Positions 35,913-52,157 of a stretch of DNA of 64,000 nucleotides are shown one piece after another. Position 1 is the stretch's first letter. Each line of letters opens with the position of its first letter. Where the stretch lies: the NCBI RefSeq assembly GCF_000969905.1, contig NZ_CP009520.1, forward strand, positions 434,001-498,000, given 5' to 3'. The notes beneath the pieces are model-generated. The model worked only from the letters and a program-made list of their open reading frames with translations, did no database searches and was not told where the DNA came from. Made by a program: the position numbers and the translations under genes. Source of the DNA: Methanosarcina vacuolata Z-761. GTDB lineage: Archaea > Halobacteriota > Methanosarcinia > Methanosarcinales > Methanosarcinaceae.

Positions 35913-35930
35913 TATCAAGATATGTTGATA
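35913..35930. promoter_or_regulatory. TATCAA-N6-TTGATA palindrome upstream of the thioredoxin-lipoprotein/ccdA operon
   Basis: TATCAA, GATATG, TTGATA. The site lies 64 bases upstream of the lipoprotein start. Perfect half-sites. Confidence 0.7.
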
Positions 35931-36083
35931 TACTCAAATGTAACAAATATTATAAGTATTTTGTCAAATTACTTGTGAGTATCAAAAATATGAGGAAGAT
36001 CCTTGTAGTGATTAACTCGATTGACAAGAGGAAATATTCTGTAATTGATCAGTCCAGTGAGAAATCAATCTATTTTCCCTTGT

Positions 36084-36275
36084 TTACCTCTTCTCTGCTT
36101 GTTTTTGATTCAGTGCTCGCCGAGAATATTCATCTACACAGAACTGGCACGTTATACGGGCAGAAGGTACAACAGCAACTACCTCTTTGATTTTAAGATC
36201 AAATGCCTTCTCCATAAAGATAGTGCGGCATATATTTACAAAGATTTCAGGAACTTTTGGTAATACTTTATTCAA
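36084..36275 (-). pseudogene. truncated AhpD/CMD-family gene
   Basis: The frame encodes LPKVPEIFVNICRTIF.., then LKIKEVVAVV and the active-site region ITCQFCVDEYSRRAL, and breaks off. The intact homologue at 43808-44167 has CQFCVDTHSQRAIAAGATKEEI at this place. The C-terminal half is missing, so the fragment cannot fold normally. Confidence 0.75.
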
Positions 36276-36339
36276 AAAGGGCAGCTTAATCCTTCAAATT
36301 GATTTAGAAATCCTAAGTTATAAAAAACCGCGATGTATA

Positions 36340-36357
36340 TATCAAAAAATGTTGATA
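36340..36357. promoter_or_regulatory. TATCAA-N6-TTGATA palindrome
   Basis: TATCAA, AAAATG, TTGATA. It lies between the truncated ahpD copy and the arsR-type gene at 36476. Perfect half-sites. Confidence 0.65.
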
Positions 36358-36419
36358 TATTGTAATTTAAGATTTTTAAAGTCCCAAAAAATATTGAGTA
36401 TAAATAATAATATGTTAGA

Positions 36420-36437
36420 TATCTAAAATAATTGATA
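36420..36437. promoter_or_regulatory. near-palindrome TATCTA-N6-TTGATA at the arsR-type gene
   Basis: One mismatch in the left half-site. It is 39 bases upstream of ATG 36476, a position suited to promoter occlusion. Confidence 0.55.
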
Positions 36438-36475
36438 TGAAAACCCTTATTTAGAAGGCTTAACTTCTTTTATTT

Positions 36476-36835
36476 ATGAGCTATTGTTGTCCTGCTGACC
36501 CTGAGAAAAAGAAGGAATGGGAAGGGAAAATGCTCCAGGAAATCGATTTTCTGGACAATGACATAAAAAAAGCCAGTGAGATCTTCAGTGCTCTCGGACA
36601 TCCTATAAGACTGAAAATTGCTTATTTTCTCTCTCAACGAGATCACTGCGTTTGTGAATTGATATTTAAATTGAACGAAAGGCAGAACCTTGTTTCTCAT
36701 CACCTTGCAATCATGAAAAACTGCGGGATCGTCGAAGCCTACAGCAGTTCAAAATGGCATTTTTACAGGTTGAATCCTGAATTTGAAGATATTTTTGATA
36801 TTATTAAGCAGTTACAAAACAAAAAATCCGAATAA
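36476..36835 (+). CDS. ArsR-family winged-helix regulator
   Basis: The 119-residue protein has an N-terminal CC pair (MSYCCPADPEKKKE), then a helical lead-in, ASEIFSALGHPIRLKIAYFL, a DHCVCELIFKLNERQNLVSHHLAIMKNCGIV helix-turn-helix with the CVCEL metalloid motif, and a wing region SSSKWHFYRLN. The N-terminal CC plus CVC could form a three-Cys arsenite site. It differs clearly from the other ArsR copies in the window. The ligand is inferred from family and island context. Confidence 0.88.
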   Translation: MSYCCPADPEKKKEWEGKMLQEIDFLDNDIKKASEIFSALGHPIRLKIAYFLSQRDHCVCELIFKLNERQNLVSHHLAIMKNCGIVEAYSSSKWHFYRLNPEFEDIFDIIKQLQNKKSE

Positions 36836-36920
36836 ACCTGAAAGAAAATATGAATGAACCTGAATGAAAATCAGAACAGGGCTTAATTAAATCTGGAATG
36901 AAAAAGATTTAAAAATGAAT

Positions 36921-37062
36921 ATGACTGGGGTTTTCGTCCTTAAAGCAGCAACAACAGTCTTCTTCTCATCTATTTGTATTTTCTTCTGTCTATGTATCTT
37001 TTGTATTTTTTTTCTGTCTATGTATCTTTTGTATTTTTTCTGTCCATGTATCTTTTGTTTTT
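36921..37062. repeat. AhpD C-terminal remnant followed by a roughly 26 bp tandem repeat
   Basis: On the minus strand, 36928-36967 still encodes an EDCCCC.KD tail like that ending the gene at 43808. Units around TCTGTCTATGTATCTTTTG follow three times at 36981-37062. No functional gene is present in the 36836-37207 gap. Confidence 0.6.
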
Positions 37063-37207
37063 CCATTAGAATATGAAATCTACTTTATTTCGTTAGCCTG
37101 GAAACTATGTGAGTTAAAAATAGCCTTTACTCCAAATTTACAAACAATATGTCTAATTTCCAATTTCGAAAAATATATATAATTCTACATATTCAATAAT
37201 TGTTGAT

Positions 37208-37507
37208 ATGATTAATGAAGAAAATATACAGCTTTTCAAGGCTCTAAGTGAAGACACCAGGTATAGAATTATTAAGGCTTTAATCGAATCTGAAAATAAA
37301 TGCAGAGAAAATAAATACGGTAACAGAGGAGAGCTATGTGCCTGTGAGATCCCGGAAATAATCGGGAGGACTCAGTCCAATACCTCAATGCACCTTGCAA
37401 AATTACAGGACTGGGGGATAATTAAGGTAAGAAAAGAGGGGAAAAAGAGGTTATATTCTATCCAAAACGAAAAAATCAGGAAAATTCTGGAGGTACTTGA
37501 GGAATAA
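37208..37507 (+). CDS. ArsR-family regulator (paralogue of 52483-52782)
   Basis: The 99-residue winged-helix protein has LFKALSEDTRYRIIKALIES, ELCACEIPEIIGRTQSNTSMHLAKLQDWGIIKVRKEGKKRLYSI. The CAC in the ELCACE motif, plus a Cys in the insert ENKCRENKYGNRGE, could bind a soft metalloid. A second copy in the window is nearly identical. The start ATG overlaps a TTGATA half-site (37203-37208), suggesting autoregulation. Its downstream genes (permease, mini-thioredoxin, DGC protein) probably form its target operon. Confidence 0.9.
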   Translation: MINEENIQLFKALSEDTRYRIIKALIESENKCRENKYGNRGELCACEIPEIIGRTQSNTSMHLAKLQDWGIIKVRKEGKKRLYSIQNEKIRKILEVLEE

Positions 37508-37688
37508 GATTTTGTACTATTATAAAAACTCAAAAGAAGTTGGTTCCTCGTTGTTTTGTGTGTATATCCTCAATATTCTCATAAAACCAATTCGGTCTTG
37601 AATTGAAAATCATCTTAAGTAAAAGTATATGGGGTTCAAAATGAATTAAATATTCTGAGCTTCAGGGAAATATTTAAATAATATTAAG

Positions 37689-37706
37689 TATCATCATATA
37701 TTGATA
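37689..37706. promoter_or_regulatory. TATCAT-N6-TTGATA palindrome upstream of the permease operon
   Basis: TATCAT, CATATA, TTGATA, with one mismatch. It lies 52 bases upstream of ATG 37758. Confidence 0.6.
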
Positions 37707-37757
37707 TATTTGTAAATTGAAATATCGTTCAAGAAGTAACATAATGGAGGATCCAAA

Positions 37758-38729
37758 ATGGTTGATATATTCTATCCTCTTCAATGGATTGCTGATAAAC
37801 TGACATATGAGGTGTTTAAAATTGCACCTGACACACACCTTGCAGCCAGTGTTAACTTTATCATTTATGATGTGCTGAAAATTTTCTTGCTGCTTGCCGT
37901 GATGATTTTTGTTGTTTCCTACATCAGGACCTATGTAACTCCAGAAAAAACCCGAAAAATCCTTGGAGGCAGAACAGGATTGCAATATCATCTATTAGCC
38001 TCCATGCTAGGAGTGGTAACGCCTTTCTGTTCCTGTTCATCAGTACCTCTTTTTATTGGTTTTGTTGAATCTGGAATCCCACTCGGAGTGACTTTCTCAT
38101 TTCTTATTACCTCCCCCCTGGTAAATGAGGCTGCAGTTGCTGCACTGTGGGCCACCATTGGCCTTAAGGTAACCCTGATCTATATAGTATCAGGTGTTGT
38201 ACTCGGAGTTTTTGGTGGGTACTTAATAGGCCTTCTGAAAATGGAAAAATATGTGGCGGATTTTGTTTACAATATAAAGGTAGGGGATCAAAATAGAGGT
38301 CAGGAATCTCTGAAAATAAATGAAAGAGCTGCGATTGCCTATGATAATGTTAAAGAAATCGTGGAAAAGGTCTGGATATACATAATTATTGGAGTTACTT
38401 TGGGAGGAATCTTCCACGGATATGCTCCCGAAGGCATCCTTGCACAATATGCAGGGAAAGACAATTTGCTTGCTGTTCCAATTGCAGTCGTTATAGGGGT
38501 TCCTCTATACTCAAACGTTATGGGTATGATCCCTATAGTGGAAAGCCTTATTGGAAAAGGGCTTCCTGTCGGCACTGCTCTAGCCTTCCTTATGGCAGTT
38601 ACTGCACTTTCGCTCCCTGAAATGATTATCCTGAAGAAAGTACTTAAAAAAGAGTTGATTGGAGCTTTTGTTTTAATTGTTACGGTATCGATCATATTTA
38701 CTGGATATCTATTTAACATTATTCTATGA
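37758..38729 (+). CDS. UPF0718/ArsP-type permease
   Basis: The 323-residue membrane protein has about eight to nine helices. It shows the duplicated signature of the family: a GVVTPFCSCSSVPLFIGF motif with CxC in the first half and IGVPLYSNVMGMIPIVESLIGKGLPVGTALAF in the second. Relatives include the ArsP exporters of organic arsenicals and predicted thiol or metal permeases. GGAGG lies eight bases before the ATG. It heads an operon with a redox protein, a DGC zinc-binding protein and a Cys-rich protein. Arsenic transport is inferred from the neighbourhood. Confidence 0.87.
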   Translation: MVDIFYPLQWIADKLTYEVFKIAPDTHLAASVNFIIYDVLKIFLLLAVMIFVVSYIRTYVTPEKTRKILGGRTGLQYHLLASMLGVVTPFCSCSSVPLFIGFVESGIPLGVTFSFLITSPLVNEAAVAALWATIGLKVTLIYIVSGVVLGVFGGYLIGLLKMEKYVADFVYNIKVGDQNRGQESLKINERAAIAYDNVKEIVEKVWIYIIIGVTLGGIFHGYAPEGILAQYAGKDNLLAVPIAVVIGVPLYSNVMGMIPIVESLIGKGLPVGTALAFLMAVTALSLPEMIILKKVLKKELIGAFVLIVTVSIIFTGYLFNIIL

Positions 38730-38823
38730 GATTAATGTATCTACAACTCGAAAAGACAGTAAAATGTTCAAATAATGACAGTAAAATGTTCAAAATGATA
38801 AAACAAAACACGAGGTTAAAAAG

Positions 38824-39057
38824 ATGAAGATCGAAATTCTCGGAACTGGTTGTCCAAAGTGCAAAAAGACAAAAGAAACGATTGAAAAAGTACTGAAGCA
38901 GACTGGCGTAGATGCTGAAGTAATTAAAGTTGAGGATATTGAAAAAATACTGAACTACGGCGTTATGGTCACTCCTGCAGTTGTTATTGATGGAGAAGTA
39001 AAAGTTGCAGGTAAGGTTCCAGACGAAAAAGATATTCGAAAATGGGTTACTCAATAA
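38824..39057 (+). CDS. thioredoxin-like small redox-active disulfide protein
   Basis: The 77-residue mini-thioredoxin of the redox-active disulfide protein 2 family has active site GCPKCKKTKETIEKVL, a GVMVTPAVVIDGEVKVAGKVP cis-Pro strand, and no extra domains. Such proteins often accompany UPF0718 permeases. The SD is GAGGT. It lies third in the ArsR-controlled run, about 95 bases after the permease. Confidence 0.93.
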   Translation: MKIEILGTGCPKCKKTKETIEKVLKQTGVDAEVIKVEDIEKILNYGVMVTPAVVIDGEVKVAGKVPDEKDIRKWVTQ

Positions 39058-39124
39058 AAAAGGAATCGTTTACTATTCAATTAATTAATATAAGAAAAAA
39101 CAAGCTCATGAGGAGGATAAAATT

Positions 39125-39508
39125 ATGGCAGAAGAGACAAAATGCGCATGTGGTTCGTCAAATGTGGCAATTTTCCCATGTACTGGGGCTTCAAATGTGG
39201 GACAACTTTCAAATAAGACCGCGATAGAACTCGAAAGACAAAACTTTGGAAACCTGATGTGTACCGTAGGAATTGGGGCTAGGGCTCCCGGACTCATGAA
39301 ATCCGCCGAGGCTTCAGAAAGGATAATTGCAATTGATGGCTGCCCGGTGAACTGTGCAAGTAAAACTCTCGAACTTGCAGGTTTTAAAGTGGATCAACAT
39401 ATTGTAATTTCGGAGTTCGGAATTAAAAAGAATAAAGACAAGGATCTCAAAGACAGTGAAATCTCAGAAGCTCTAGAAAAAACCCTTGAAATACTGCAGT
39501 CTGAATGA
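39125..39508 (+). CDS. DGC-domain putative zinc-binding protein
   Basis: The 127-residue cytoplasmic protein has CACGSSNVAIFPCTGASNVGQLSN at the N-terminus, MCTVGIGARAPG, and the diagnostic IDGCPVNCASKTLELAG. Six conserved Cys suggest metal or metalloid binding. The family's role is not established. The strong ribosome site GAGGAGGA precedes the ATG. It is co-oriented with the permease and mini-thioredoxin. Confidence 0.9.
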   Translation: MAEETKCACGSSNVAIFPCTGASNVGQLSNKTAIELERQNFGNLMCTVGIGARAPGLMKSAEASERIIAIDGCPVNCASKTLELAGFKVDQHIVISEFGIKKNKDKDLKDSEISEALEKTLEILQSE

Positions 39509-39570
39509 TTTCGGTTTCAATTAACATTATGCATTGCTAAGACCATATATCTTAATAATCAGAAACTTAA

Positions 39571-39915
39571 ATGACCAAAATTAAAGGTGGCAAGTTGACT
39601 GAATTTACTGTAAATTCTACTATATGTGGTTTTGTTCACAAGATACGTGGAAGCAAAAAAGGAAATAAAATTATTGTTGACATTGAAACTCCATGTGAAA
39701 AGATAAAGAAGTTCTCTCACATGGAAGTTCCCATGATGGAAATTATGGATATCAAAAACAACTATGTGATTGATAGAGCACAGGAAGCACAGTGCTCCTC
39801 AAATTGTCTTGTGCCCTGTGCAGTGCTCAATCTCTGCAGACTGGAAAGTGGTTTCCTTGCAAAATCTCTAGTAAAAAAGGCAGGTAGCATTAGCATCGAG
39901 TTCAATGAAGTTTAA
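39571..39915 (+). CDS. conserved Cys-rich protein of unknown function
   Basis: The 114-residue protein has an initial beta-rich half (FTVNSTICGFVHKIRGSKKGNKIIVDIETPC) and a Cys cluster QCSSNCLVPCAVLNLC. The Cys spacing suggests binding of a metal or Fe-S cluster. It is the last gene of the ArsR-permease run. A broken paralogue with a MITE insertion lies at 33026-33514. The ribosome site is weak; TTG 39595 is a possible alternative. Confidence 0.8.
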   Translation: MTKIKGGKLTEFTVNSTICGFVHKIRGSKKGNKIIVDIETPCEKIKKFSHMEVPMMEIMDIKNNYVIDRAQEAQCSSNCLVPCAVLNLCRLESGFLAKSLVKKAGSISIEFNEV

Positions 39916-40021
39916 AAAAGGAAAAATTTACCTCCTTTTCAATTTCCAATTTAATACTCAAGAGGCAAATTCCTTTAAAGGAAAGAATTTCTTTATGGTT
40001 AAGTGAAAAACCTGTTAAAAA

Positions 40022-40148: not shown

Positions 40149-40198
40149 ATGAAATTATTATTTAGATCTTTTTAATTAGAAGCTGAAAACTTTGAATC

Positions 40199-40747
40199 TT
40201 ATCCTCTTTTAATTTTGGACATTACATTCTTCTTTACCTGAGATTCATATTTCTTCCAGCTATTTTCATCAATTTCGGGCATGATAAGCTCCGGAGCTTC
40301 GCTTCTTTCTTTTCTACTACAGGAATCTATTGCCTGCTGGATGACCAAAGGGTCGGTTATCCCTACGAGGTCAATGACTTCAATTTCCCTAAGAAAACGA
40401 GAGATTGCAGTCGCTGGAATTTCGTTAAGGTAAGGAATTACTCCTTCAGACCCGACAATCTTTTTTGACCCTCCGAAAGTCGAAACTCCATTTTCGGCAA
40501 GTGACAGCAGGGACTGCCCGGCAAAATGTTCACTTTCCTTCCCGCAGACAATCAGGCAGCTGATGTGAGGATTTGAAAGTACATTAACTATTATCTTCTC
40601 AATTCCAAAATTTTCCGTAAAACAGGTCCCGCAGATGGCGTAGTTTTTTAAATTCAAGTCTCGATAGTCAGAAGCAAGGGTTACTACTGCCACAGGAGAT
40701 TTTGGGTCTCCTACTACATAATCGCCAGAAGTTATAGGCCATGCCAT
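40199..40747 (-). CDS. soluble MtrA paralogue (corrinoid-binding methyltransferase subunit A-like)
   Basis: The 182-residue protein aligns with subunit A of tetrahydromethanopterin S-methyltransferase: WPITSGDYVVGDPKSPVAVVTLAS, a CGTCFTENFGIEKIIVNVLSNPHISCLIVCG block, ESEHFAGQSLLSLAENGV with His74 at the place of MtrA's cobalt-ligand histidine, GVIPYLNEIPATAISRF and IEVIDLVGITD. The C-terminal membrane helix of true MtrA is missing, so it is cytoplasmic and is not part of the Na+-pumping complex. It follows arsM by 84 bases on the same strand, suggesting that a methyl-corrinoid carrier works with an arsenic methyltransferase. Confidence 0.87.
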   Translation of the reverse strand: MAWPITSGDYVVGDPKSPVAVVTLASDYRDLNLKNYAICGTCFTENFGIEKIIVNVLSNPHISCLIVCGKESEHFAGQSLLSLAENGVSTFGGSKKIVGSEGVIPYLNEIPATAISRFLREIEVIDLVGITDPLVIQQAIDSCSRKERSEAPELIMPEIDENSWKKYESQVKKNVMSKIKRG

Positions 40748-40831: not shown

Positions 40832-41578
40832 TTATTTCCAGGCTTTAAGTTTTAAGCTCTCTGCAGGCAACTCATTATATTGTCTTTTGCTTATATCCAG
40901 GTCTTCATTCAAAACTTCAACTACAAATCCGGCTCTCTTTAAAAGCCCAAGATACTCTTCCTTAAGCAAGGCACCTGCAAGGCAGCCTGTGAGCAGGTCT
41001 TTGTCATTCTTCAGGTTTTCGGGAAGCTCGGCCAGAAGAACCATGTCAGAAATATACATTGCGCCTTCTGGTTTCAAAACTCTAAAGGCTTCTTTAAAAA
41101 CTTTTTCTTTATCTGGAGCAAGATTGATCACGCAATTACTGATAATAACATCCACTGACCCGCTCTCAACCGGAAGAGCTTCTATATCTCCAAGACGAAA
41201 TTCGACATTGGTATAACCGTATTTTTGGGAGTTTGCCTGTGCCTTTTCGACCATAGCCTGAGTCATATCAACTCCAATAACCTTTCCTGATTTCCCTACC
41301 TTCTGTGCAGCAAGGAAACAGTCAAATCCTGCACCTGAACCGAGATCTAGTACAACATCACTTGGTTTTAATTCTGCAAAAGCGGTTGGGTTTCCACAAC
41401 CAAGACCCAGATTTGCGTCTGGAACAGCATTGATATCATTTTCAGAATAGCCAATGGATTTTGACAGATCTATCGCACTCGAATCACCACAACATCCACT
41501 CGAACAACAGGACCCGCCTAACATTGCTATTTTTCCGTATTTCTCTTTAATTACTTGCTTTTTTTCACTTGCATCCAC
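40832..41578 (-). CDS. arsM: arsenite S-adenosylmethionine methyltransferase
   Basis: The 248-residue class I SAM methyltransferase converts As(III) to methylated arsenicals. Diagnostic features are a Cys-rich N-terminus ([12 protein letters not shown]), [39 protein letters not shown] as SAM motif [28 protein letters not shown] and [10 protein letters not shown]. The Cys in SNC and TGC are the arsenite ligands known for the family. A perfect palindrome TATCAA-N6-TTGATA lies about 87 bases upstream. The MtrA-like gene follows in the same transcript. Confidence 0.94.
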
Positions 41579-41664: not shown

Positions 41665-41682
41665 TATCAAAATATATTGATA
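41665..41682. promoter_or_regulatory. TATCAA-N6-TTGATA palindrome upstream of arsM
   Basis: TATCAA, AATATA, TTGATA. Perfect half-sites 87-104 bases upstream of the arsM start. Confidence 0.72.
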
Positions 41683-41888: not shown

Positions 41889-43645
41889 GTTTTAACCTGA
41901 CTTCCGCTTTTTTTAAGCGCATAAATTCAATTTTTCCATAATTTCTTTTTGCTTTCTTGTGAGTTCTGTAACTATTACCTCTCCATTTTGCAGTTCTACT
42001 TTTCTGATCTTCTCAAGCTCTAAAAGTAAACTCTCTACTGTATAATCCTCAATAATTTTTGTTTCCTTCATCATACTCAGTAGCTTCATTCTAATAATTA
42101 GTCCGATAAAGCAGACAAAAATGAATCCCTTTGTTGTTGAATCTTTGTTTGTGTTTAGTGGAAGCGACTGAATATCATTTTTCATTACTTTGAATCCTTT
42201 CTCAACAATATCTCTTTCTCTGTAGTAAGTGAGACATTCTACCCAATCACGTTCTCCATAATAAAAAAGGAAAAACTTCCCCATTCTGTTTATTCTCTGC
42301 GATACTGCATTTTTCTTGATATTGATTTTGAAATGGTCATCTATCTTTTTCCACGAATAGAAACTTGCCATTTCCCTTGCTCTCTCTTTGAACACCTCTG
42401 CCGCATTTCTCCATCCTGGTATTGCTGTTTCTTCCAGTTTTTCCTTCATATCATAAAGACGGGAGTAAAATGTGCTTTTTTCGTCCATTTCTCTCTTTGG
42501 ATCATAGAAACAGTATCCATTGATCTTGAATTCCTTTTCCTCAAGAGTCACTGGCTTTACAAATATTGGTTTTTTGTGAAACTTATGAAGATATTCCGGA
42601 CTTTCGATGTCTTTTTGTACTGAACTCATAAGCTCTTGACAACTTTAAGTGCCATGTAGCTGCATAATAAAAAGAATCTTTCCCTTACTAATTCTCAATG
42701 TTTCCCTTGCTGAAAAATCCTCTATCCCATTACCAGTGTATAGTTTTCCATTCCATGAGCTTCTATCTTTTTTAGAGTATTTTTAAGAGTTGTAACGTCT
42801 ACAATACTTCCAGGATAGATGTCATACATCACCGGAATTCCTTTTTCCTTATCCACAATCATGGAGAGATTTATTTGAGGAAGATCGCAATTGTCTCTAT
42901 TGTATCCGTATTCAAGAAGATTAATTAGTTGTGAGTAGCTCGATAAACTGGTAAGATCGTACATTAATGTGCGTTTTGTCCCAAGATTTCTAAACATTTT
43001 ACCCATAAACATGGATGGAATGTCGCTATTACCTACTTTTGCAAGTAGATTACTGATGTTTTGACTTTTCAAGGGTAACTCAGGCCACTGGAGAGAAAGA
43101 ACAGAATTCTCATACCAGGTTTTAAGGTTATACATAGCTGTAGGACGAATTACACGATTAAGTGCCATTGAAAGTATCATGTTTCTGTCTTTCTCATTGA
43201 ACAGATCACCAAGATACTCTTCAATTTTGAGTTCTTCTACGATTTTTTGCAATGGAAGGAACTCACCATAGTTATAAGCATTTATAGGTTTGCTGGAAAC
43301 GAAAGAAGTCTCATCTTGCACGATTTCATCGGAAGAGTTTAATGCGTCACGAACTCTAACAGGTTTACCGTTTATGTTTCTGCCAACATATTTGGATTTA
43401 TGGCGAATTTGTTTCTTTTCCTTATCGTAATAAGGAATATCTTCGTACCAGTACTCAATTCCATTTATTTTCTTGATGCGGAGTGTGGACTTCATGTGCT
43501 TATTATATAAGCACATAAGAGTATATAAAAGTTTTGAATTGTTGTTTGGAAATGAATAAGTTCGCATGCATCTGCACACGAATTAATTGAGCAAAATAGG
43601 GATACAAGAATTATGCGCTTAAAATTTGGGAATTAAGGTTTTAAC
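41889..43645. mobile_element. IS1634-type insertion sequence with damaged transposase
   Basis: The outer ends GTTTTAACC..TTTTAAGCGCATAA and, inverted, GTTAAAACC..TTTTAAGCGCATAA form imperfect terminal repeats of about 38 bp around a minus-strand DDE transposase. A target duplication is not clear. Just outside the left end, at 41838, lies a lone GAGCCTATTCCAAAAG end of the MITE family seen at 33277. Confidence 0.8.
41913..43495 (-). pseudogene. IS1634/IS4-type transposase, frameshifted
   Basis: The N-terminal part (from 43495, IKKINGIEYWYEDIPYYDKEKK..) runs through MYDLTSLSSYS (first Asp) to NYTLVMG, then leaves frame. One base removed restores VMDRGFFSKGNIEN (second Asp), and at least one more shift is needed before the downstream frame that holds RERDIVEKGFKVMKND (Glu). 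The two halves read 43579-42722 and 42629-41913. Without correction it is inactive; programmed frameshifting cannot explain two distant breaks. Confidence 0.88.
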
Positions 43646-43790: not shown

Positions 43791-43807
43791 ACAAAATGAC
43801 TGGGTTT

Positions 43808-44167
43808 TTAGTCCTTACAGCAGCAACAACAGTCTTCTCCCTTATCCTTCCCTTCTTCTCCCTTATCCTTTTCAAAGATTTTGTCGTATATATTTTCCCT
43901 GTATATGTTTGTCCACCCTATCTGTGTACCTGCAGAAACAAACATAGCGACTGAAATCGTTTCGGCAATTTCCTCCTTTGTAGCTCCTGCAGCAATCGCT
44001 CTTTGCGAATGTGTATCAACACAAAACTGACAACGCATAAGGACAGAGGAGGCAATGGCTATAAGTTCCTTGGTTTTAAGATCCAGATAACCATCTTTGA
44101 ATATTGAACTTCTCATCTGTCCAAAAGCTTCCGCAGTTTCAGGTAACATTTCATCCAAAAATGACAT
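43808..44167 (-). CDS. AhpD/CMD-family protein with CCCCC tail
   Basis: The 119-residue helical protein has the alkylhydroperoxidase-type active site RCQFCVDTHSQRAIAAGATKEEIAETI, with both Cys of CxxC and the following His, so disulfide-based peroxide reduction is plausible. After the fold ends (about residue 100) there is an unusual KDKGEEGKDKGEDCCCCCKD tail, five consecutive Cys that would bind a thiophilic metal or metalloid. Remnants of two further copies lie at 36084-36275 and 36921-36970. A TATCAA-N6-TTGATA site lies upstream at 44650, with a candidate small gene between. Confidence 0.88.
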   Translation of the reverse strand: MSFLDEMLPETAEAFGQMRSSIFKDGYLDLKTKELIAIASSVLMRCQFCVDTHSQRAIAAGATKEEIAETISVAMFVSAGTQIGWTNIYRENIYDKIFEKDKGEEGKDKGEDCCCCCKD

Positions 44168-44393: not shown

Positions 44394-44561
44394 TTAATGG
44401 CCAGGTTTTCTGCAAAAAGCGTTATTCCAGTGCATAGTGTTGCCCCGGTCTTCAGCCTTATGTGTGTACAGCAGGTCTTCTTCATCATCTTCTGGATTAT
44501 TTGTAGTTTCTTTTGGCAATGTATCTTTTTCTTTTGGCAATGTATCTTTTTCTTTTTTCAA
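44394..44561 (-). CDS. candidate small protein (55 aa), unknown
   Basis: This is an open frame starting at TTG with AAGGAG eight bases upstream (44570-44575). It encodes a charged N-terminus with a twofold KEKDTLP heptad, an acidic PEDDEED centre and one Cys near the end. It lies between a perfect palindrome (44650-44667) and the AhpD-like gene, in the same direction. Small size and repeat content make this tentative. Confidence 0.35.
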   Translation of the reverse strand: MKKEKDTLPKEKDTLPKETTNNPEDDEEDLLYTHKAEDRGNTMHWNNAFCRKPGH

Positions 44562-44649: not shown

Positions 44650-44667
44650 TATCAAGAATAATTGATA
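44650..44667. promoter_or_regulatory. TATCAA-N6-TTGATA palindrome
   Basis: TATCAA, GAATAA, TTGATA. Perfect half-sites in a divergent region, upstream of the AhpD-like unit on one side and the HTH-Fe-S gene on the other. Confidence 0.68.
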
Positions 44668-44723: not shown

Positions 44724-44741
44724 TATCAATCTTTTTTGATA
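44724..44741. promoter_or_regulatory. TATCAA-TCTTTT-TTGATA palindrome
   Basis: Identical over all 18 bases, including the spacer, to the site at 46888-46905. It is 175 bases upstream of the first HTH-Fe-S gene, whose paralogue follows the other copy. Confidence 0.7.
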
Positions 44742-44915: not shown

Positions 44916-45713
44916 ATGCCTGGAAATCCGAATGAGATAAAACTTGTAAATAATGCTATGTCTAATGCCACCCGAAGGAAGATTATGAACTTTCTTGTAG
45001 ATGGCGATAGAAGTACCGAAGAAGTCGCAGAAGCTGCAGGAAAGACAATGCTTGACTTCCATCTCAAGCTTCTTCAACAGGCAAGCCTGATTGAATTAAC
45101 AGACGGAACAGTCAGATTAAGTGAATACGGCAGAAATTTTCTGAAGGGCAAGGAAGAAAAAGATACTCAAAAAAATGCCGATCTCTCTCAGGCAAAGCCT
45201 GTGGATATTGCAGAAATCCGGCAGCTTTTACCCTGTATAGCAGACTCCTCAAAATTCAGGGTAATTGCAAATATGACTCCCCCGCTTGGTGGAACCCTCA
45301 AAGTTCTTGAACCTCTCTTTCCCAGAGGCAGATACTCGGAAAAGATCAGCGCCCTGATATTGCAAAAAGGAGAAGTGCTTACAACGGTTTACGGTACTGG
45401 AAAAGTTACCATGACAATGATTAAAAACGAGGCAGAGGCCAGGGAAGCGCTTGAAAGTCTTAGAAGTACCATCAATGAGGCTATTGCAAAGGGTGTTGCT
45501 CCTGCTCCCCGGGAAAAGGTTAGGGTCGAACCCATGGCGCTTTACAAGTACCTGCCCCAGACCAATTGTGGTAAATGCGGCGAACAGAGCTGTTATACTT
45601 TTGCCATAAAACTCATGAGCGGAGAAGCTTCCCTTGATAAGTGTACATCGCTCAAGGAGCCGGAGTACGCAACTAACCAGGAACATTTGCAGGTTCTCAG
45701 TGCGTACATTTGA
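44916..45713 (+). CDS. ArsR-type HTH fused to a [4Fe-4S]-binding domain, copy 1
   Basis: The 265-residue protein has three parts. Residues 5-80 are a winged helix (NAMSNATRRKIMNFLVDGDRSTEEVAEAAGKTMLDFHLKLL). Residues 95-205 are a middle domain beginning QAKPVDIAEIRQLLPCIADSSKFRVIANMTPPLGGTLKVLEPLFPRG. The end is a four-Cys cluster motif, TNCGKCGEQSCYTFAIKLMSG..SLDKC, as in Fe-S domains of CdhE/RnfB-like proteins. It is probably a redox- or ligand-sensing transcription factor. I chose ATG 44916 (AAGGGTG just upstream, matching the paralogue's N-terminus) although the frame is open to 44844. It is 60-70% similar by eye to 47054-47851. Confidence 0.82.
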   Translation: MPGNPNEIKLVNNAMSNATRRKIMNFLVDGDRSTEEVAEAAGKTMLDFHLKLLQQASLIELTDGTVRLSEYGRNFLKGKEEKDTQKNADLSQAKPVDIAEIRQLLPCIADSSKFRVIANMTPPLGGTLKVLEPLFPRGRYSEKISALILQKGEVLTTVYGTGKVTMTMIKNEAEAREALESLRSTINEAIAKGVAPAPREKVRVEPMALYKYLPQTNCGKCGEQSCYTFAIKLMSGEASLDKCTSLKEPEYATNQEHLQVLSAYI

Positions 45714-45867: not shown

Positions 45868-46035
45868 TAACAATTTTATAACTACAACGACTTTGTAACT
45901 ATCGACTTTATAACTATCGACTTTGTAACTATACCGACTTTGTAATTCTAATGACTTTGTAACTCTAATGACTGTGTAGTTATATGACATTAGTTGTCAA
46001 AGACATTAGTTGCCAAAGACATTAGTTGTCAAAGA
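45868..46035. repeat. compound tandem repeat running into the QueG-like gene
   Basis: Units of about 16-18 bp (CGACTTTGTAACTAT, then GACATTAGTTGTCAAA three times) fill the gap and continue into the last codons of the minus-strand gene ending at 46006. The preceding bases 45738-45755 resemble a GAGCCTATC MITE end. Confidence 0.85.
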
Positions 46036-46797
46036 CTTTACAGAATCCTCCTCTAACTCAGCAGGATCCAGGGTACAGGGGCCAGTGGTGCACTTTCCAC
46101 AGCCATGTTGATTGAGTTCAGGGTAAGCTTTTATGTCTTCTTGAAGCTGCATAAAGCACTTCTCTTTATCAAACCCAGTTGAACTAAGAGCGCCGGATTG
46201 ACATCTATCCACACATATAAGGCATTTTTCTCCTCTTTTGTGCCTGCAGAACTCTTCTTTTGGACGTGGAGTAGGGGGGATTTCGGCAGAAATCAGAAGA
46301 GATCCAATTCGACCTGCGCATCCGGCTTTTGTAATCAACATTTGGTTTACTCCGAAAGTTCCAATTCCGGCAGCATAAGCGGCGCTCTTGTGAGACCATG
46401 AAACATTAAAACCATTATTCTTATAATCGAAAATAATTTTAGGTACAATTGCTGTGATACCCTCTTTTGCCAGTTCAGTTTTAATTCTTTCATTGATTTC
46501 TCCGATAAGGTGAGAAGTATCTACACTAGCCTGAATAGATTCCTTTACCACGCCTGATTTCAAGTTCTGTTTCACAAGCTCTTTGTCAAATGGCAAGAAG
46601 AAAGAGACAACGGTCTTTGCTTCAGGAAAGATTTCTTTTGGATTTAAGTGATGAAAACCTACGATTTGTTTAATTTCCATAAAAATAGGATCGGTAGTAG
46701 AAGCAAAACCTATGATGGGTTCACGATATCTTGTTTTAGTATCTGAATTTGCTACAGTGTTCTTTATTATGGTCTCAATCTTGTTTTTTAGTTCCAT
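46006..46797 (-). CDS. QueG-like Fe-S protein (epoxyqueuosine-reductase/reductive-dehalogenase-related fold)
   Basis: The 263-residue protein has the cobalamin-fold-like half of the family, FNVSWSHKSAAYAAGIGTFGVNQMLITKAGCAGRIGSLL, followed by a ferredoxin region: CRHKRGEKCLICVDRCQSGAL, then a Cys (KCFM) and GCGKCTTGPC, enough for two [4Fe-4S] clusters. Real QueG proteins are longer and have a HEAT-like C-terminus; this shorter type is frequent in anaerobes with unknown function. Its C-terminal SLTTNVFGN is encoded by a tandem repeat, so the end has been rewritten. It is divergent from the second HTH-Fe-S gene and shares the palindrome at 46888. Confidence 0.82.
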   Translation of the reverse strand: MELKNKIETIIKNTVANSDTKTRYREPIIGFASTTDPIFMEIKQIVGFHHLNPKEIFPEAKTVVSFFLPFDKELVKQNLKSGVVKESIQASVDTSHLIGEINERIKTELAKEGITAIVPKIIFDYKNNGFNVSWSHKSAAYAAGIGTFGVNQMLITKAGCAGRIGSLLISAEIPPTPRPKEEFCRHKRGEKCLICVDRCQSGALSSTGFDKEKCFMQLQEDIKAYPELNQHGCGKCTTGPCTLDPAELEEDSVKSLTTNVFGN

Positions 46798-46887: not shown

Positions 46888-46905
46888 TATCAATCTTTTT
46901 TGATA
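46888..46905. promoter_or_regulatory. TATCAA-TCTTTT-TTGATA palindrome in a divergent promoter
   Basis: Same 18 bases as at 44724. It lies 91 bases upstream of the QueG-like gene and about 150 upstream of the second HTH-Fe-S gene. Confidence 0.72.
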
Positions 46906-47053: not shown

Positions 47054-47851
47054 ATGTCAGGAGGTTCGAGTGAAACAAAGTTGGTGAATTTTGCTATGGG
47101 CAATAAGACCCGAAGGAAAATAATAAACTTCCTTGCAAACGGCAATAGAAATGTTGAGGAAATTGAAGCTCTAGTCGGGAATAAAACGATTGATTTCCAT
47201 CTGAAGATTTTACAAGATGCGGACCTTATTGAGTTAACAGAAAGAACTGCGAAAATCAGTGAACATGGCAAAAATTTCTTGAAAAGTGACAAAAAAAGCA
47301 ACACTGAAGAACTTAAAGACCTTTCTCAGGCAAAGCCTGTGGAGATTGCGGAAGTTCGACAGCTTTTGCCCTGTATAGCGGATTCCACAAAGTTCAGAGT
47401 AATTGCAAATATGGCTCCTCCGCTGGGTGGGGTCTTAAAAATTCTTGAACCAATCTTTCCCAGAGGGAATTATTCAGATAAAAAAGATAGTCTCATAATT
47501 CAAAAAGGAGAAATCATTACAACTATTTATGGTAGCGGCAAAGTAGTCATGAGAATGGTTAAAAATGAGAATGAAGCTAAAGAAGAGCTCGAAAATCTAA
47601 AAAACACTATTAATGAAACTATCAAAAAAGGAATAGTTCCGCCTCCCAGAGAAAAAGTCAGGGTAGAACTTATGGACATATATAAACACCTGCCCCAGAC
47701 AAACTGTCGAGACTGCGGTGAACAGGGCTGCTACAGCTTTGCCATAAGGCTAATGGCAGGACAGGTAAGTTTAGATCAGTGTACGCAACTTAAAGAGCCA
47801 GGTTATGAACCCAATCTCGAACGGCTACAGTTTCTGGCTGCGTATATTTAA
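47054..47851 (+). CDS. ArsR-type HTH fused to a [4Fe-4S]-binding domain, copy 2
   Basis: The 265-residue paralogue of 44916-45713 has the same three-part order: winged helix (NKTRRKIINFLANGNRNVEEIEALVGNKTIDFHLKIL), central QAKPVEIAEVRQLLPCIADSTKFRVIANMAPPLGG domain, and Fe-S motif TNCRDCGEQGCYSFAIRLMAG..SLDQC. All four cluster Cys are kept. GAGAGGTG precedes the ATG. It is followed by the DsrE/DsrF/DsrH-like trio on the same strand with short gaps, so it probably controls that set and is co-transcribed with it. Confidence 0.83.
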   Translation: MSGGSSETKLVNFAMGNKTRRKIINFLANGNRNVEEIEALVGNKTIDFHLKILQDADLIELTERTAKISEHGKNFLKSDKKSNTEELKDLSQAKPVEIAEVRQLLPCIADSTKFRVIANMAPPLGGVLKILEPIFPRGNYSDKKDSLIIQKGEIITTIYGSGKVVMRMVKNENEAKEELENLKNTINETIKKGIVPPPREKVRVELMDIYKHLPQTNCRDCGEQGCYSFAIRLMAGQVSLDQCTQLKEPGYEPNLERLQFLAAYI

Positions 47852-47889
47852 GTCACAATCATTAACGTATCAATTAGTTGGAGGAAGCT

Positions 47890-48270: not shown

Positions 48271-48294
48271 GTTAGCAGAAACGAGGTCTAAACG

Positions 48295-48639
48295 ATGAAA
48301 TCAGTTTTCTATCTGCTGGATACAGCTCCATATGGCAGTGAAAAAGCATTTGGAGCGTTGAATGCAGCCGCAGTAAGCCTTAGCGAGATGGATGTGACTC
48401 TTGGCCTTTATGGTGATGGAGTTTATCTTGCAGTTGCAGGTCAAGATAGCCGAAAACTTGGATTACCAAACCTTGCAGATATTCTATATGCATACGGGGA
48501 GTTGAGAGTGCTTGTGCACGAGCCTTCGCTTGTAGAAAGAGGGCTTTTCGGGGAAACCTTCATCGAAACTCTGGAACTGACCGACGAAGAAGAATTTTTT
48601 GAAGCAATGGAAAGCTCGGACTGCGTTCTCTCATTTTAA
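48295..48639 (+). CDS. DsrF/TusC-like sulfur-relay protein
   Basis: The 114-residue protein has KSVFYLLDTAPYGSEKAFGALNAAAVSLSEMDVTLGLYGDGVYLAVAGQ, the typical TusC/DsrF N-terminal alpha/beta layout, and LRVLVHEPSLVERGL. It has one Cys at the C-terminus (SSDCVLSF). GAGGT precedes the ATG, and the gap to the upstream gene is 24 bases. Confidence 0.83.
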   Translation: MKSVFYLLDTAPYGSEKAFGALNAAAVSLSEMDVTLGLYGDGVYLAVAGQDSRKLGLPNLADILYAYGELRVLVHEPSLVERGLFGETFIETLELTDEEEFFEAMESSDCVLSF

Positions 48640-48672
48640 TACTGGTTGCTGATTAAGGATTTGGATGATAAT

Positions 48673-48972
48673 ATGAAAAAAGAACAATTGGATGTGTTTC
48701 TGCTGACAAAGCCTCCTTTCAGCCCGAGATCGGAGTTATGCCTCAAACTGGCTGCACGTTCCGGGAAGGTCAGAATCTACCTTGCAGGAGACGGAGTCTA
48801 TCACCTGCTTACCAGGATAGAGGAACAGCCAGAGTTTAAAATTTATGCATGTAAAGAAGACCTCGAAGCCAGAGCCGTCAGGGCAGGAGACAAAGTGACA
48901 GTCCCGGATGACTTTTACCTGGATTTTATAGAGGATATAATGGAGCACTGCAGGCATGAGTATGCATTTTAA
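48673..48972 (+). CDS. DsrH/TusB-like sulfur-relay protein
   Basis: The 99-residue protein has LDVFLLTKPPFSPRSELCLKLAARSGKVRIYLAGDGVYHLL, followed by a FKIYACKEDLEARAV strand with the Cys expected in TusB/DsrH. I chose ATG 48673 because the residues before it have no counterpart in the family; the frame opens at 48646. It is third of the trio, completing a probable heterohexameric complex. Confidence 0.82.
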   Translation: MKKEQLDVFLLTKPPFSPRSELCLKLAARSGKVRIYLAGDGVYHLLTRIEEQPEFKIYACKEDLEARAVRAGDKVTVPDDFYLDFIEDIMEHCRHEYAF

Positions 48973-49119
48973 AATACTGGCCTTAAAAATGAGATTATAC
49001 TTTTTGATTTACAGTTAAATGTTCCAGATTTTACTCTCTCATATTTTATTTTCCCAGATTTTGCTCTGCCGAATTTTACTTTTATACTTTCAATTGCTTC
49101 TTAAAATTACTGAAAATAA

Positions 49120-49434
49120 ATGCTAACCGGGTTGAGTCCTATGGTCGAGAATATCCCGAGAGAAATAATAAAAGATCTGCAATCGGTATGCCAGTTGCAT
49201 GAGGAGGCTGTCTGTAACCATGACAAATGTAGGGAGTTCAGCGAAAACTTGTCCGCACTTTTGATCCGGCTTGAAGATCTTAAGTTCTACCGGATGGCCG
49301 ACAGACTGATGAGCATTCTCCTTAACTGCAAACCAAAAGAGGCTTCTCACTGTGAAAAAGCAAACCTTGTAGGGGAGATGATGAAAGAAATAACAAAAGA
49401 GGCAAAGAATGCAGGTGACAGCTCCCGCCAATGA
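49120..49434 (+). CDS. small hypothetical protein with three to four Cys
   Basis: Not recognised. The 104-residue, mainly helical, charged protein has SVCQLHEEAVCNHDKCREF near the middle and LLNCKPKEASHCEKANLV later, spacings that could bind a metal ion. It follows the DsrEFH-like trio after about 150 bases in the same direction. The ribosome site is poor; ATG 49141 is an alternative start. I regard it as probably real because of its Cys/His pattern. Confidence 0.5.
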   Translation: MLTGLSPMVENIPREIIKDLQSVCQLHEEAVCNHDKCREFSENLSALLIRLEDLKFYRMADRLMSILLNCKPKEASHCEKANLVGEMMKEITKEAKNAGDSSRQ

Positions 49435-50080
49435 ATTGACGGGCACCTACGGAATTTCAACCTATGCCATACTGCCCCAGGGCAATTGTTATTCCGGTTC
49501 TCGCCATCAACGTTCAAACTTTTACCTGCAGAACTACTCTGTAGAACCTTATAGTTTAAGTCCAGTAGCAAAGTTAAGCGGCTCTTGTATCATTTCCAGC
49601 TTCCAAGACAAAACTTAATAATATATATAAAACTTAATAAAATATATAAAACTTAATAATATTAATCTGTTATTTGAGTTAAAAACGTGATGTTGAGACA
49701 GATTATGCATTCATCCCACGTTTGAATACGCGGGGATTCTACTTCGATGTTCTAAAGTGGCCTGCCCTATTTGCAGTACTAATTTACAGCTTCCGACCAG
49801 ATCTCCCAGAGCAAGAGAAGCAATCCACAAAACTTTGAGGGTTCTGCTTCGGCTGTGGGATCAGATGAAGGGAAGCTCAAAATCTTCCGGCAGGTCAGAG
49901 ATGAGATAAAAGACTGAATCTCTAGTGTTGAGTCAACAACAAAATGTCGTATTAAATCGATTGCAGTTATTCGGAATTATTGAATCCTTTATAATTGACT
50001 CGACACCAGGACATTTGGTAAATATGCCAGGTTTTTGATTTGTCTGCACGGCATCATTCTGGTTCTTTCTTTGATTGCTT
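49435..50080. other. intergenic region with arsC remnant and a 20 bp repeat
   Basis: Three copies of an AAAACTTAATAATATATAT-like unit lie at 49613-49662. The arsC scar (49818-49917) is listed separately. No intact gene is present. Confidence 0.5.
49818..49917 (+). pseudogene. C-terminal remnant of a low-molecular-weight phosphatase-type arsenate reductase
   Basis: One frame reads NFEGSASAVGSDEGKLKIFRQVRDEIKD before TGA. This resembles the C-terminal end of ArsC proteins (DPA..GSxEExLxxFRxVRDEI). No N-terminal catalytic CxxxxxR segment is left upstream. Confidence 0.55.
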
Positions 50081-50980
50081 TCACAATGCCAGCAGATTGG
50101 CAAGATATCCTGCAGTTACAGCTATGGTAAAGATGGTCACTACGAAGGCTGACAATAATCTTTTCTTGAATATGGCTGAAAGAAGGGTCAGTTCTGGTAT
50201 GCTAGCTCCTGCTCCGCCAATTATCAGTGCAAGTACTGCTCCCACACTCATCCCTTTTCCAATTAGCGCCAGTCCTATAGGGATCATAGTCTCAGCCCGG
50301 ATATAGAGAGGGATGCCAACAATTACAGCCACAGGAACTGCCAGAGGATTGCTCGGCCCTGCGAGGCGGGAGACAATGTCCGTTGGTACGAATCCGTGAA
50401 TGAATGCACCAATGCCTGCTCCTAAGAGGAGATAGGGCATGAGCTGACGGAATAGGCTGAACGCGAATCCTGCAGATCTCTGTATTCTGGATTTTGCGTC
50501 CGTTGATTGCTGACAGTCACAGCTGTTTCGTACAACAGCGGCTGGCTTAACATATCTTGAGAAGCCCAGTCCATCAAGCAAAAGGCCGATGACAACTGCA
50601 GCTATGAAGACTACAACAAAGTAAAGAGCAGCCACCTTCCAGCCCAGTAAAATGACAAATAGAGATATTATCACCGGGTTTAGCAAAGGCGATGAGAACA
50701 GGAATGCCATTGCTGCAGCAAAAGGGGCACCAGCCTTGAGCATTCCAAGTAGAAGTGGTATGGTTGAACAGGAGCAGAAAGGAGTTAGAGCACCAAATCC
50801 TGCCCCAAGGATGCTTCCTATTATCTTGTTCCTCCCACCAAGTGCCTTTTTTATGGTCTCGTCTGGCACATACTCCTGAATCAGCCCCACGAGAAAGGTT
50901 ATTCCTATAAATAAAACAGCAAGTTCGACTGCTATTTCAACGAAGTAATTAACCGCCACAGTTAAATTATTCCAGAACAT
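50081..50980 (-). CDS. UPF0718/ArsP-type permease, second copy
   Basis: The 299-residue membrane protein belongs to the same superfamily as 37758-38729 but to a different branch. GALTPFCSCSTIPLLLGML carries the CxC motif, then SSPLLNPVIISLFVILLG and, in the second half, GIPLYIRAETMIPIGLALIGKGMSVGAVLALIIGGAGASIPELTLL. A soluble loop has a SCDCQQS Cys cluster that may bind a metalloid. It lies downstream of, and in the same direction as, the ArsR gene at 51155 (about 175 bases), which likely controls it. The substrate is unproven. Confidence 0.87.
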   Translation of the reverse strand: MFWNNLTVAVNYFVEIAVELAVLFIGITFLVGLIQEYVPDETIKKALGGRNKIIGSILGAGFGALTPFCSCSTIPLLLGMLKAGAPFAAAMAFLFSSPLLNPVIISLFVILLGWKVAALYFVVVFIAAVVIGLLLDGLGFSRYVKPAAVVRNSCDCQQSTDAKSRIQRSAGFAFSLFRQLMPYLLLGAGIGAFIHGFVPTDIVSRLAGPSNPLAVPVAVIVGIPLYIRAETMIPIGLALIGKGMSVGAVLALIIGGAGASIPELTLLSAIFKKRLLSAFVVTIFTIAVTAGYLANLLAL

Positions 50981-51154
50981 TTCGATCTTCCTTCAAAATT
51001 TACTTTTTATTCAACCGTCGAAAGCTACAGCTATTGGAAATTTGAATACACAGTATTCTCTCCAGAACCCAACATTTTCGAAGCTTAAACCGTTTTTGAA
51101 GGGTCCAAATTTGTCCCTATATCCTACTTTCAAAAAGAGAACTTTACTGGAAGC

Positions 51155-51568
51155 TCACTTGTCATGAAGCAGCTTTGCCTGGTTAAGTATTTCAATAACC
51201 GCTCCATCCGAGAGACGAAAGTAAGACCATTTACCTTCTTTCCGTTCTTTGATAAGGCCCGCATTTTTCAATACTGAAAGATGATGAGAAACAGTCGATT
51301 GAGAATTGGAAAGGGCAATCGTTAGTTCGCAGGCACAGAGTTCTCCTTCCTTCAATAGTTTTAATATTTTCAGACGATTCGTATCGGCAAGAGCCTTAAA
51401 AACCCTTGTTTCCGAATTTAGTACTTCTTCGTCCAGCATATTTACCAGAGAACTGAGCTTTTGAGTTCTTACTTCTAACTGATCCCGATCAAAAATAAAA
51501 CGCTTCAACCTTTCGATTTCCACTTCACTCTTTCTTTTATTCGTATCTGATTTCTTTTCGGTTCCCAT
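51155..51568 (-). CDS. ArsR-family regulator with N-terminal extension
   Basis: The 137-residue protein has about 50 charged N-terminal residues with coiled-coil character, then a winged helix: VFKALADTNRLKILKLLKEGELCACELTIALSNSQSTVSHHLSVLKNAGLIKERKEGKWSYFRL. The ELCACEL motif supplies the two metalloid-binding Cys. It starts three bases after the stop of a 53-residue Cys-rich protein, so the two are translationally linked. It is the third gene of an operon running from 52107. Confidence 0.9.
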   Translation of the reverse strand: MGTEKKSDTNKRKSEVEIERLKRFIFDRDQLEVRTQKLSSLVNMLDEEVLNSETRVFKALADTNRLKILKLLKEGELCACELTIALSNSQSTVSHHLSVLKNAGLIKERKEGKWSYFRLSDGAVIEILNQAKLLHDK

Positions 51569-51571
51569 GAA

Positions 51572-51733
51572 TTACCTGCAGCAGCTACCTCCACCTTCTA
51601 AAGGGAGCAGCTTGTTTTTACTCTGTTCTTTTGACCAGCATTTTACACATAGTTTTATAGTTCCTAAGTCCACGTGATTGGCTCGGAGTAACGAATCTTC
51701 TTCTTTTCCGCAAATCGAGCACTTAAAATTCAT
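51572..51733 (-). CDS. 53-residue Cys-rich protein, probable zinc or metalloid binder
   Basis: The sequence begins MNFKCSICGKEED, continues with a LCVKC pair, and ends GGGSCCR. Two CxxC pairs form a zinc-ribbon-like knuckle, and the terminal CC adds thiophilic ligands. The ATG has only a short GGA upstream, but the stop is three bases before the ArsR start, and the gene fills the gap between two co-oriented genes. The coding pattern of paired Cys argues that it is real. Confidence 0.65.
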   Translation of the reverse strand: MNFKCSICGKEEDSLLRANHVDLGTIKLCVKCWSKEQSKNKLLPLEGGGSCCR

Positions 51734-51801
51734 TTCCAGGGCCTCATAACAAAATTCTCCTCATGATTGGCAATGTTTCATATTCATATGTATAAATATG
51801 A

Positions 51802-52107
51802 TTATATTTTTTTCTTCTGCCAGTATGTTTCATATTCTTTCAACACTGCGACTTTGAATTTCTCCAGTTCTTCTTCAGAAATTTCATTTATCTTTGCAAG
51901 GTTTCGAGTAAGTTCTTCGCAGTCTATATTCTCTGGAGTCTTGCCTATATCATTCTGTTTTTCGAATTCTTCATCCAATCCGGCAATTTCCATTTCTTTA
52001 TTGCCAACTTTTATCTTTCTGACACTTACAATAGAAGGCCCGCAACAGCAGCAACTTTTGTTATTTCCTGTGAGTTTCCCAAGTAAATTTTTTCCGAGTT
52101 TACTCAT
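51802..52107 (-). CDS. small protein with CCCC motif, unknown
   Basis: The 101-residue protein has NKSCCCCGPSIVSVRKIKVGNKEMEIAGLDEEFEK near the N-terminus and a helical, acidic C-terminal half. The centre (KIKVGNKEMEIAGLDE) resembles the small proteins found beside UPF0718 permeases and mini-thioredoxins. Four consecutive Cys suggest soft-metal binding. It is the first gene of the operon with the 53-residue protein and ArsR. A perfect TATCAA-N6-TTGATA site lies 33-50 bases upstream. Confidence 0.78.
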   Translation of the reverse strand: MSKLGKNLLGKLTGNNKSCCCCGPSIVSVRKIKVGNKEMEIAGLDEEFEKQNDIGKTPENIDCEELTRNLAKINEISEEELEKFKVAVLKEYETYWQKKKI

Positions 52108-52139
52108 CTAAAAATGTCTCCTTTTATAATCCGCATATA

Positions 52140-52157
52140 TATCAAAGAATATTGATA
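52140..52157. promoter_or_regulatory. TATCAA-N6-TTGATA palindrome upstream of the CCCC-protein operon
   Basis: TATCAA, AGAATA, TTGATA. Perfect half-sites close to the start at 52107, where a bound repressor would block transcription. Confidence 0.72.

Follow-up and report, generated by a model that had tools for sequence, protein, structure and literature searches.

What reads the palindrome TATCAA-N6-TTGATA, which recurs across an arsenic/redox gene island of the methanogen Methanosarcina vacuolata Z-761? The window that we analysed is a stretch of 64,000 nucleotides of this genome (contig NZ_CP009520.1, positions 434,001 to 498,000). An initial annotation, made from its sequence alone, proposed that the palindrome marks a single local operator class, read either by two near-identical ArsR proteins (here ArsR2) or by two proteins that join a helix-turn-helix (HTH) domain to an iron-sulfur (Fe-S) domain. 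Comparison across genomes supports one operator class that is local to the island and conserved upstream of homologues, and describes a genuine, conserved regulon of the ArsR type in this archaeal genus, for which the assignment of the regulator is revised. At most island promoters, we consider it likely that the palindrome serves ArsR repressors of the As(III) type as their operator, with a third protein, ArsR1, as the main reader and ArsR2 acting at the permease gene arsP (Table 1).

The seven perfect copies given in the initial annotation all lie where it placed them, within 16.2 kb of the window, and 100 dinucleotide shuffles produce none; the single-mismatch copies that it gave at 36420 and 37689 are also real. 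What it called half-sites at the two ArsR2 starts are present, but they are better described as complete sites that run into the ATG and whose left arm is degenerate. The six-base spacer is as constant as described: when spacers of 0-16 bases are scanned in the window, only N6 gives more than one match, and N14 gives one, within the DUF6951 gene. Other spacer lengths were discarded as operator variants, none being meaningful; the ten N14 matches found in total cluster in one conserved stretch (nine, in what is the DUF6951 gene in the window), the tenth being in locus L104. The whole genome of 4,563,885 bases holds eight exact copies, seven of them in the island, against none of a reversed control pattern, and the motif is not equally common elsewhere; the eighth copy lies inside an open reading frame (ORF) outside the island. 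At up to one mismatch the genome-wide counts are 48 for the palindrome and 28 for the control. Single-mismatch copies beyond the island are therefore mostly noise, and only exact copies are informative there.

The palindrome is kept across the genus. Thirty genomes hold 141 exact copies against 18 of the reversed control, with at least one copy in 29 of them, and 81 genomes from other genera of the family hold 80 against 39; the genomes are related and the counts are not independent. The expected conservation was found for 106 of the 140 genus copies examined in context, which lie upstream of island-gene homologues (E<=1e-8 to 25 reference ORFs, two of which are transposase-like pieces; upstream limits of 200, 250 or 500 bp). 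Even the spacer bases are kept per target, with an identical 18-mer, TATCAATCTTTTTTGATA, in 21 of 26 promoters of the HTH/Fe-S genes and an identical TATCAAACAAAATTGATA in 11 of 14 near-start ArsR1 sites. An exact copy was the reason for fetching the loci behind these spacer counts and most other genus loci, and the spacer stretch put to a binomial test was picked once the data had been viewed; no such selection applies to the ArsR1, ArsR2 and HTH/Fe-S loci found by protein search, which give best matches only. The near-background frequency of one-mismatch copies is what chance matches in A+T-rich intergenic DNA would give, but the excess of exact copies over shuffles and over the genus control, together with the conserved target-specific spacers, leaves that explanation a negligible probability. 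For the exact island copies, chance is ruled out by the shuffles, the clustering in the genome and the positions before island homologues.

The palindrome also has a precedent. It contains the core ATCAA-N6-TTGAT with its six-base spacer, which is the ArsR binding-site consensus stated for other bacteria in the available excerpt of PMC9137774, and, according to a citation in the corresponding excerpt of PMC4585019, the repeat footprinted for ArsR of Synechocystis. The operator class is therefore not new; what is new is the extent of the archaeal regulon, the two promoter layouts and a target that joins HTH, TATA-binding protein (TBP)-like and Fe-S domains (HTH-TBP-FeS). As in that class, the site stands at an arsR promoter and is kept in orthologues. 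Among 45 ArsR1 rows (protein-searched loci, two of them present twice), 36 have a best site with at most one mismatch (none in 23, one in 13), two have two mismatches and seven have four, whereas the reversed control at the same rows has 2-5 mismatches throughout.

ArsR1 passes its family profiles comfortably (NF033788, 75.8 against a cut-off of 55; PF01022, 50 against 22), and C4, C5, C58 and the presumed recognition helix QNL(V/I)S(H/Y)HL are invariant in 42 aligned rows. Beyond its own genus and genus g5, it is matched at E<=1e-25 in 16 genomes, and 15 of these, from genera g11, g12 and g13, carry a site with at most one mismatch upstream (exact in 8, with a single mismatch in 7); in 14 the distance is 34-36 bp. 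ArsR2 is found in none of the 16 at E<=1e-10. Eleven of them have no HTH-TBP-FeS protein beyond a match to the Fe-S domain, and ten of these eleven have the site. Genomes without detected ArsR1 also bear on the question. In G024, which is 99% complete, the motif, ArsR1, ArsR2 and HTH-TBP-FeS are all missing together. Among seven hand-picked genomes without detected ArsR1 (G010, G016, G017, G024, G028, G034 and G035; five from the genus and two from neighbouring genera), six yielded no AhpD, and the AhpD gene of the seventh lacks an exact site. ArsR1 (36476), listed in the initial annotation as a target only, is most likely the main reader of the class and the candidate that these comparisons best support.

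Several observations weigh against this reading. In the genus, 34 of the 140 copies examined in context are away from island genes, 23 in open frames of at least 100 codons and 11 in other places. The seven ArsR1 rows with only four-mismatch sites come from the genus and g5, and include all three g5 copies and G001. In the sixteenth of the other-genus genomes, G106, ArsR1 has the helix QNLVSHHL yet there is no copy at up to one mismatch in 5 kb, and its N-terminus is not alignable. In G098 the exact copy stands before a second, divergent ArsR1-like gene (34% identity); the site of the closer ArsR1 has two mismatches and lies at 127 bp. G028, a 560-contig assembly in which no ArsR1 was found, retains its HTH-TBP-FeS and ArsP sites. 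An exact site is present in only 2 of 31 ArsR2 rows, and the operators that lie upstream of a TATA-like word, at HTH-TBP-FeS and the small ORF-AhpD unit, would also suit an activator. Outside the family, two ArsR proteins with an SHHL helix (L348, L356) have no site; by their N-termini they are not ArsR1 orthologues. Counting in favour of the reading, six ArsR1-like proteins outside the family that have an (L/I)SYNL helix show no copy at up to one mismatch (best 2-5 mismatches), which fits a changed site. In all, twelve genes for ArsR1-like or ArsR proteins were chosen outside the family, and none shows the palindrome at up to one mismatch; the link between ArsR1 and the site is therefore seen only within the family.

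The two ArsR2 genes were the initial annotation's own candidates, and for one promoter the proposal is probable. In 23 of the 31 ArsR2 rows the site that matches best is at the start codon, with 0-4 mismatches. All four examined genomes in which ArsR2 and a full-length ArsP occur with no detected ArsR1 (G010, G028, G034, G035) keep the exact ArsP operator; the second ArsP of G028 has a one-mismatch copy, and G017 has an ArsP fragment only. The same operator is exact in 13 aligned genus promoters, which were selected for carrying an exact copy. Because it stays intact in ArsR2-bearing genomes without detected ArsR1, in which AhpD or its site was not found, ArsR2 probably reads the ArsP copy, and ArsR1 would read most of the others. 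As sole or main reader of the class, however, ArsR2 is unlikely. It was detected in 3 of the 14 genera, and in three more, which have no ArsR2, the operator still stands at ArsR1 genes; its presumed recognition helix, QSNTSMHL, matches neither that of ArsR1 nor that of ArsR3, and most ArsR2 sites are imperfect. A single operator pool common to all three ArsR types is a somewhat better prospect, albeit a doubtful one. ArsR3 lies behind the 52140 operator, its helix QSTVSHHL resembles that of ArsR1, and exact or one-mismatch copies occur upstream of some ArsR3-like loci in Methanothrix-type genomes. Against such a pool, a TATCGA-type element stands beside the CCCC-ArsR3 genes in 11 of 16 promoters by eye, and 6 of these 11 are without an exact TATCAA copy, which is found in 9 of the 16; the TATCGA-type element presumably belongs to ArsR3.

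The other candidates of the initial annotation, the HTH-TBP-FeS proteins, could in principle read the palindrome as redox-sensing autoregulators. Their genes adjoin exact copies, with the nearly uniform 18-bp site described above, they begin with an ArsR-like winged helix, and in G070 a broken HTH-TBP-FeS gene has a one-mismatch copy 3 bp before it. But sites and genes do not travel together across genomes, and on that distribution we reject these proteins as readers, a role we regard as very improbable. Relatives were found at 63 loci, some of them in Methanosarcinaceae and the others in genomes whose titles mostly name Methanothrix or Methanosaeta. Of 45 listed loci, seven were set aside as Methanosarcinaceae (six by title, L304 by contig), and none of the remaining 38 has a site at up to one mismatch within 300 bp upstream, two of them offering only about 100 bp. 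Ten of the 38 have such a copy somewhere in the locus; the 15 in which an ArsR3-like gene immediately precedes contain none at all. In five of seven distant Methanosarcinaceae genomes (G063, G073, G078, G084, G098) there is no copy near the gene; besides G070, the remaining one, G087, carries a copy with one mismatch, which lies 445 bp upstream on the side of a divergent ArsR1. The ten ArsR1 genomes that keep the site with no HTH-TBP-FeS protein point the same way, and neither a CxC nor a CC pattern occurs in the helix domain. By their distribution, the HTH-TBP-FeS proteins look like targets of the regulon rather than its readers.

The promoters themselves fall into two layouts. At ArsP (13 of 13), the thioredoxin-lipoprotein gene (6 of 6, here at 25-26 bp in the genus) and the CCCC gene (6 of 6), the operator is preceded by a TATA-like word at a distance of 16-31 bp, which places the predicted start site in or at the operator; this is the layout of a repressor that blocks initiation. 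At HTH-TBP-FeS (21 of 26) and the small ORF-AhpD unit (16 of 19) the TATA-like word lies instead 12-14 bp downstream of the operator, and upstream words are rarer (3 of 26 and 5 of 19). That arrangement would suit an activator, or a repressor that sits over the edge of the B-recognition element (BRE) and TATA box. ArsM (2) and QueG-like (3) promoters have TATA-like words on both sides, and neither layout is clear at the near-start ArsR1 sites (3 and 1 of 14). All these counts use six-base words picked after viewing the alignments, and the start sites are predictions.

The HTH-TBP-FeS proteins are the most unusual part of the island, since each appears to be a specific regulator with a single TBP-like repeat. 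The AlphaFold2 model has a mean predicted local distance difference score (pLDDT) of 79.2 and a predicted template-modelling score (pTM) of 0.42, and because of the low pTM the arrangement of the domains is uncertain. In the model, residues 1-85 fold as a winged helix like that of ArsR proteins (CzrA, Z 12.4); the first protein falls short of the NCBIfam HTH_metalloreg cut-off (23.4 against 55), but the fold is nevertheless clear. Residues 99-190 superpose on one TBP repeat of Methanocaldococcus jannaschii 2z8u with Z 11.9, a root-mean-square deviation of 1.8 over 87 residues and 23% identity, and Foldseek matches this middle domain to TBP with probability 1.00; its matches were to single domains, never to the whole chain. 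With an E-value limit of 0.01, PF00352 is found in 23 of the 31 members (best 8.3e-6), the first protein scores 20.3-20.5 against a Pfam gathering score of 22.9, and phmmer matches 2z8u at 9e-4. The model has one repeat, where TBP has two in tandem. The Fe-S domain passes PF04060 (51.1 against 23), and its four cysteines, C218, C221, C226 and C243, are invariant in 31 rows. A DsrE/F/H-type gene lies within 2 kb downstream in 33 of the 38 loci outside the family. As a separate observation, G034 and G035 (loci L176 and L175), which have no detected ArsR1, carry TTTCAA-N6-TTGAAA at the HTH-TBP-FeS site, a symmetric change in both arms.

From the sites, their conservation and promoter positions, the distribution of the regulators and the conserved cysteines, all of them read in the sequence, we infer that the ArsRs bind, which ligand they respond to, that they repress and do not activate, and how they share the sites among themselves. 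ArsR1 would repress its own gene and most other island genes, and ArsR2 (37208, 52483) would read the same operator class at ArsP. Trivalent arsenic, or an oxidant, would act at the conserved cysteines to release the repressor, and release would switch on ArsP efflux, ArsM methylation, thiol/disulfide proteins, AhpD-like proteins and the two HTH-TBP-FeS regulators. More tentatively, the regulon may have two tiers: ArsR1 would derepress a novel type of archaeal transcription factor composed of a winged helix, a single TBP repeat and a [4Fe-4S] domain, which might sense redox state or cluster damage and steer basal transcription, by competing with or recruiting TBP, at DsrE/F/H sulfur-relay and detoxification genes.

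Table 1. Predicted operators, regulators, targets and neighbouring genes of the island, in window coordinates
Feature	Position	Strand	Remarks
ccdA-like DsbD_TM protein	34629..35264	-	target
Thioredoxin-like lipoprotein	35268..35849	-	target
Operator, exact	35913..35930		~63 bp upstream of thioredoxin-lipoprotein ATG (35849, minus strand)
Operator, exact	36340..36357		118 bp upstream of ArsR1
Operator, one mismatch	36420..36437		~38 bp upstream of ArsR1; commonest position in relatives
ArsR1	36476..36835	+	proposed main reader; C4, C5, C58 and QNL(V/I)S(H/Y)HL conserved
Degenerate operator ATTCAA-N6-TTGATA	37191..37208		2 mismatches; overlaps ArsR2 start codon
ArsR2	37208..37507	+	proposed reader of ArsP operator
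Operator, one mismatch	37689..37706		before ArsP
ArsP_1 permease	37758..38729	+	target; then Thioredoxin_3, DGC and DUF6951 genes to 39915
Arsenite methyltransferase ArsM	40832..41578	-	target; then MtrA-like gene 40199-40747
Operator, exact	41665..41682		before arsM-mtrA-like (minus strand)
AhpD-like (CMD) protein	43808..44167	-	target
55-aa gene	44394..44561	-	previously unlisted; between 44650 operator and AhpD, behind AAGGAG
Operator, exact	44650..44667		before small ORF-AhpD unit (minus strand)
Operator, exact	44724..44741		174 bp before HTH-TBP-FeS gene 1
HTH-TBP-FeS protein 1	44916..45713	+	target
QueG-like protein	46006..46797	-	target; weak match (TIGR00276, 26.7 bits against a cut-off of 200)
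Operator, exact	46888..46905		between divergent QueG-like gene and HTH-TBP-FeS gene 2
HTH-TBP-FeS protein 2	47054..47851	+	target; then two DsrE-family genes and DsrH gene to 48972
Second ArsP_1 permease	50081..50980	-	downstream of ArsR3, same strand
ArsR3	51155..51568	-	behind 52140/52156 operators
CCCC protein	51802..52107	-	target
Operator, exact	52140..52157		33 bp before CCCC-protein/ArsR3/ArsP_1 gene row (minus strand)
Variant palindrome	52156..52173		minus strand TATCGACAAATCTAGATA; abuts 52140 operator; candidate ArsR3 site
Degenerate operator ATTCAA-N6-TTGATA	52466..52483		2 mismatches; start codon of second ArsR2 copy
Second ArsR2 copy	52483..52782	+	

The list of targets in the initial annotation needs one amendment. 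The AhpD-like unit does lie behind the 44650 operator, but its first gene is the 55-aa ORF and not AhpD itself. A related frame occurs in 20 of 22 distinct upstream stretches, most of them with an ATG start; the acidic product has no Pfam match, and its conserved C-terminus around EDLLYTHKPE ends in the cysteine-containing C(R/K)..G(H/R/Q). Elsewhere in the island, a 63-aa ORF at 36084-36275 (minus strand) has a weak CMD (AhpD-type) match and is perhaps a fragment of a second AhpD-like gene, with related ORFs at the same place in L050 and L076. Between ArsM and AhpD, at 41913-43579 (minus strand), two ORFs look by eye like pieces of a broken transposase, the first of them without a Pfam match. 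The 11 genus copies outside both island promoters and long frames include one and the same exact copy in two genomes, at L038 (4410) and L099 (4077), read on opposite strands, which sits between genes labelled by eye as TetR-like and methyltransferase-like.

An operator class described in bacteria can now be traced through an archaeal genus and, at ArsR1, through three more genera. It brings the AhpD-like, DGC, DUF6951, CCCC, 55-aa and HTH-TBP-FeS proteins, all little characterised, into one predicted arsenic/redox response, which is relevant to how methanogens handle arsenic in anoxic soils. The titles and abstract openings that we surveyed, with subscription journals largely outside their coverage, describe no archaeal or Methanosarcina ArsR operator or regulon like this one, and such listings likewise name no TBP/HTH/Fe-S regulator of this architecture. 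For MM2441, an ArsR-family regulator of M. mazei, the available excerpt of PMC3510493 reports a different role.

Set beside known systems, the regulators and their operator show both shared and differing features. As(III)-responsive ArsRs of the CgArsR type (type 3) use Cys15-Cys16-Cys55 and ArsRs of the R773 type (type 1) Cys32-Cys34-Cys37, according to the excerpt available of PMC11868830. At the level of alignment ArsR1 resembles the former, with its invariant N-terminal C4-C5 pair and C58 at the start of the HTH region, but it also has C60 in its own genus, g5 and two others (L146, L220). ArsR2 resembles the latter, with C-A-C-E invariant in the rows shown and also present in the window ArsR3, but ArsR2 is without the cysteine three residues further. 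The C-terminal Fe-S domain of the HTH-TBP-FeS proteins resembles that of the corrinoid/iron-sulfur protein, and, unlike TBP (2z8u), these proteins join their single repeat to an ArsR-like winged helix and this Fe-S domain. The operator shares with the bacterial ArsR operator of Synechocystis and Paracoccus its core, its six-base spacer and its position at arsR's own promoter. It differs in having one extra matching base on each outer side, in standing at archaeal promoters that have TATA-like boxes and in being repeated at about nine promoters of one island.

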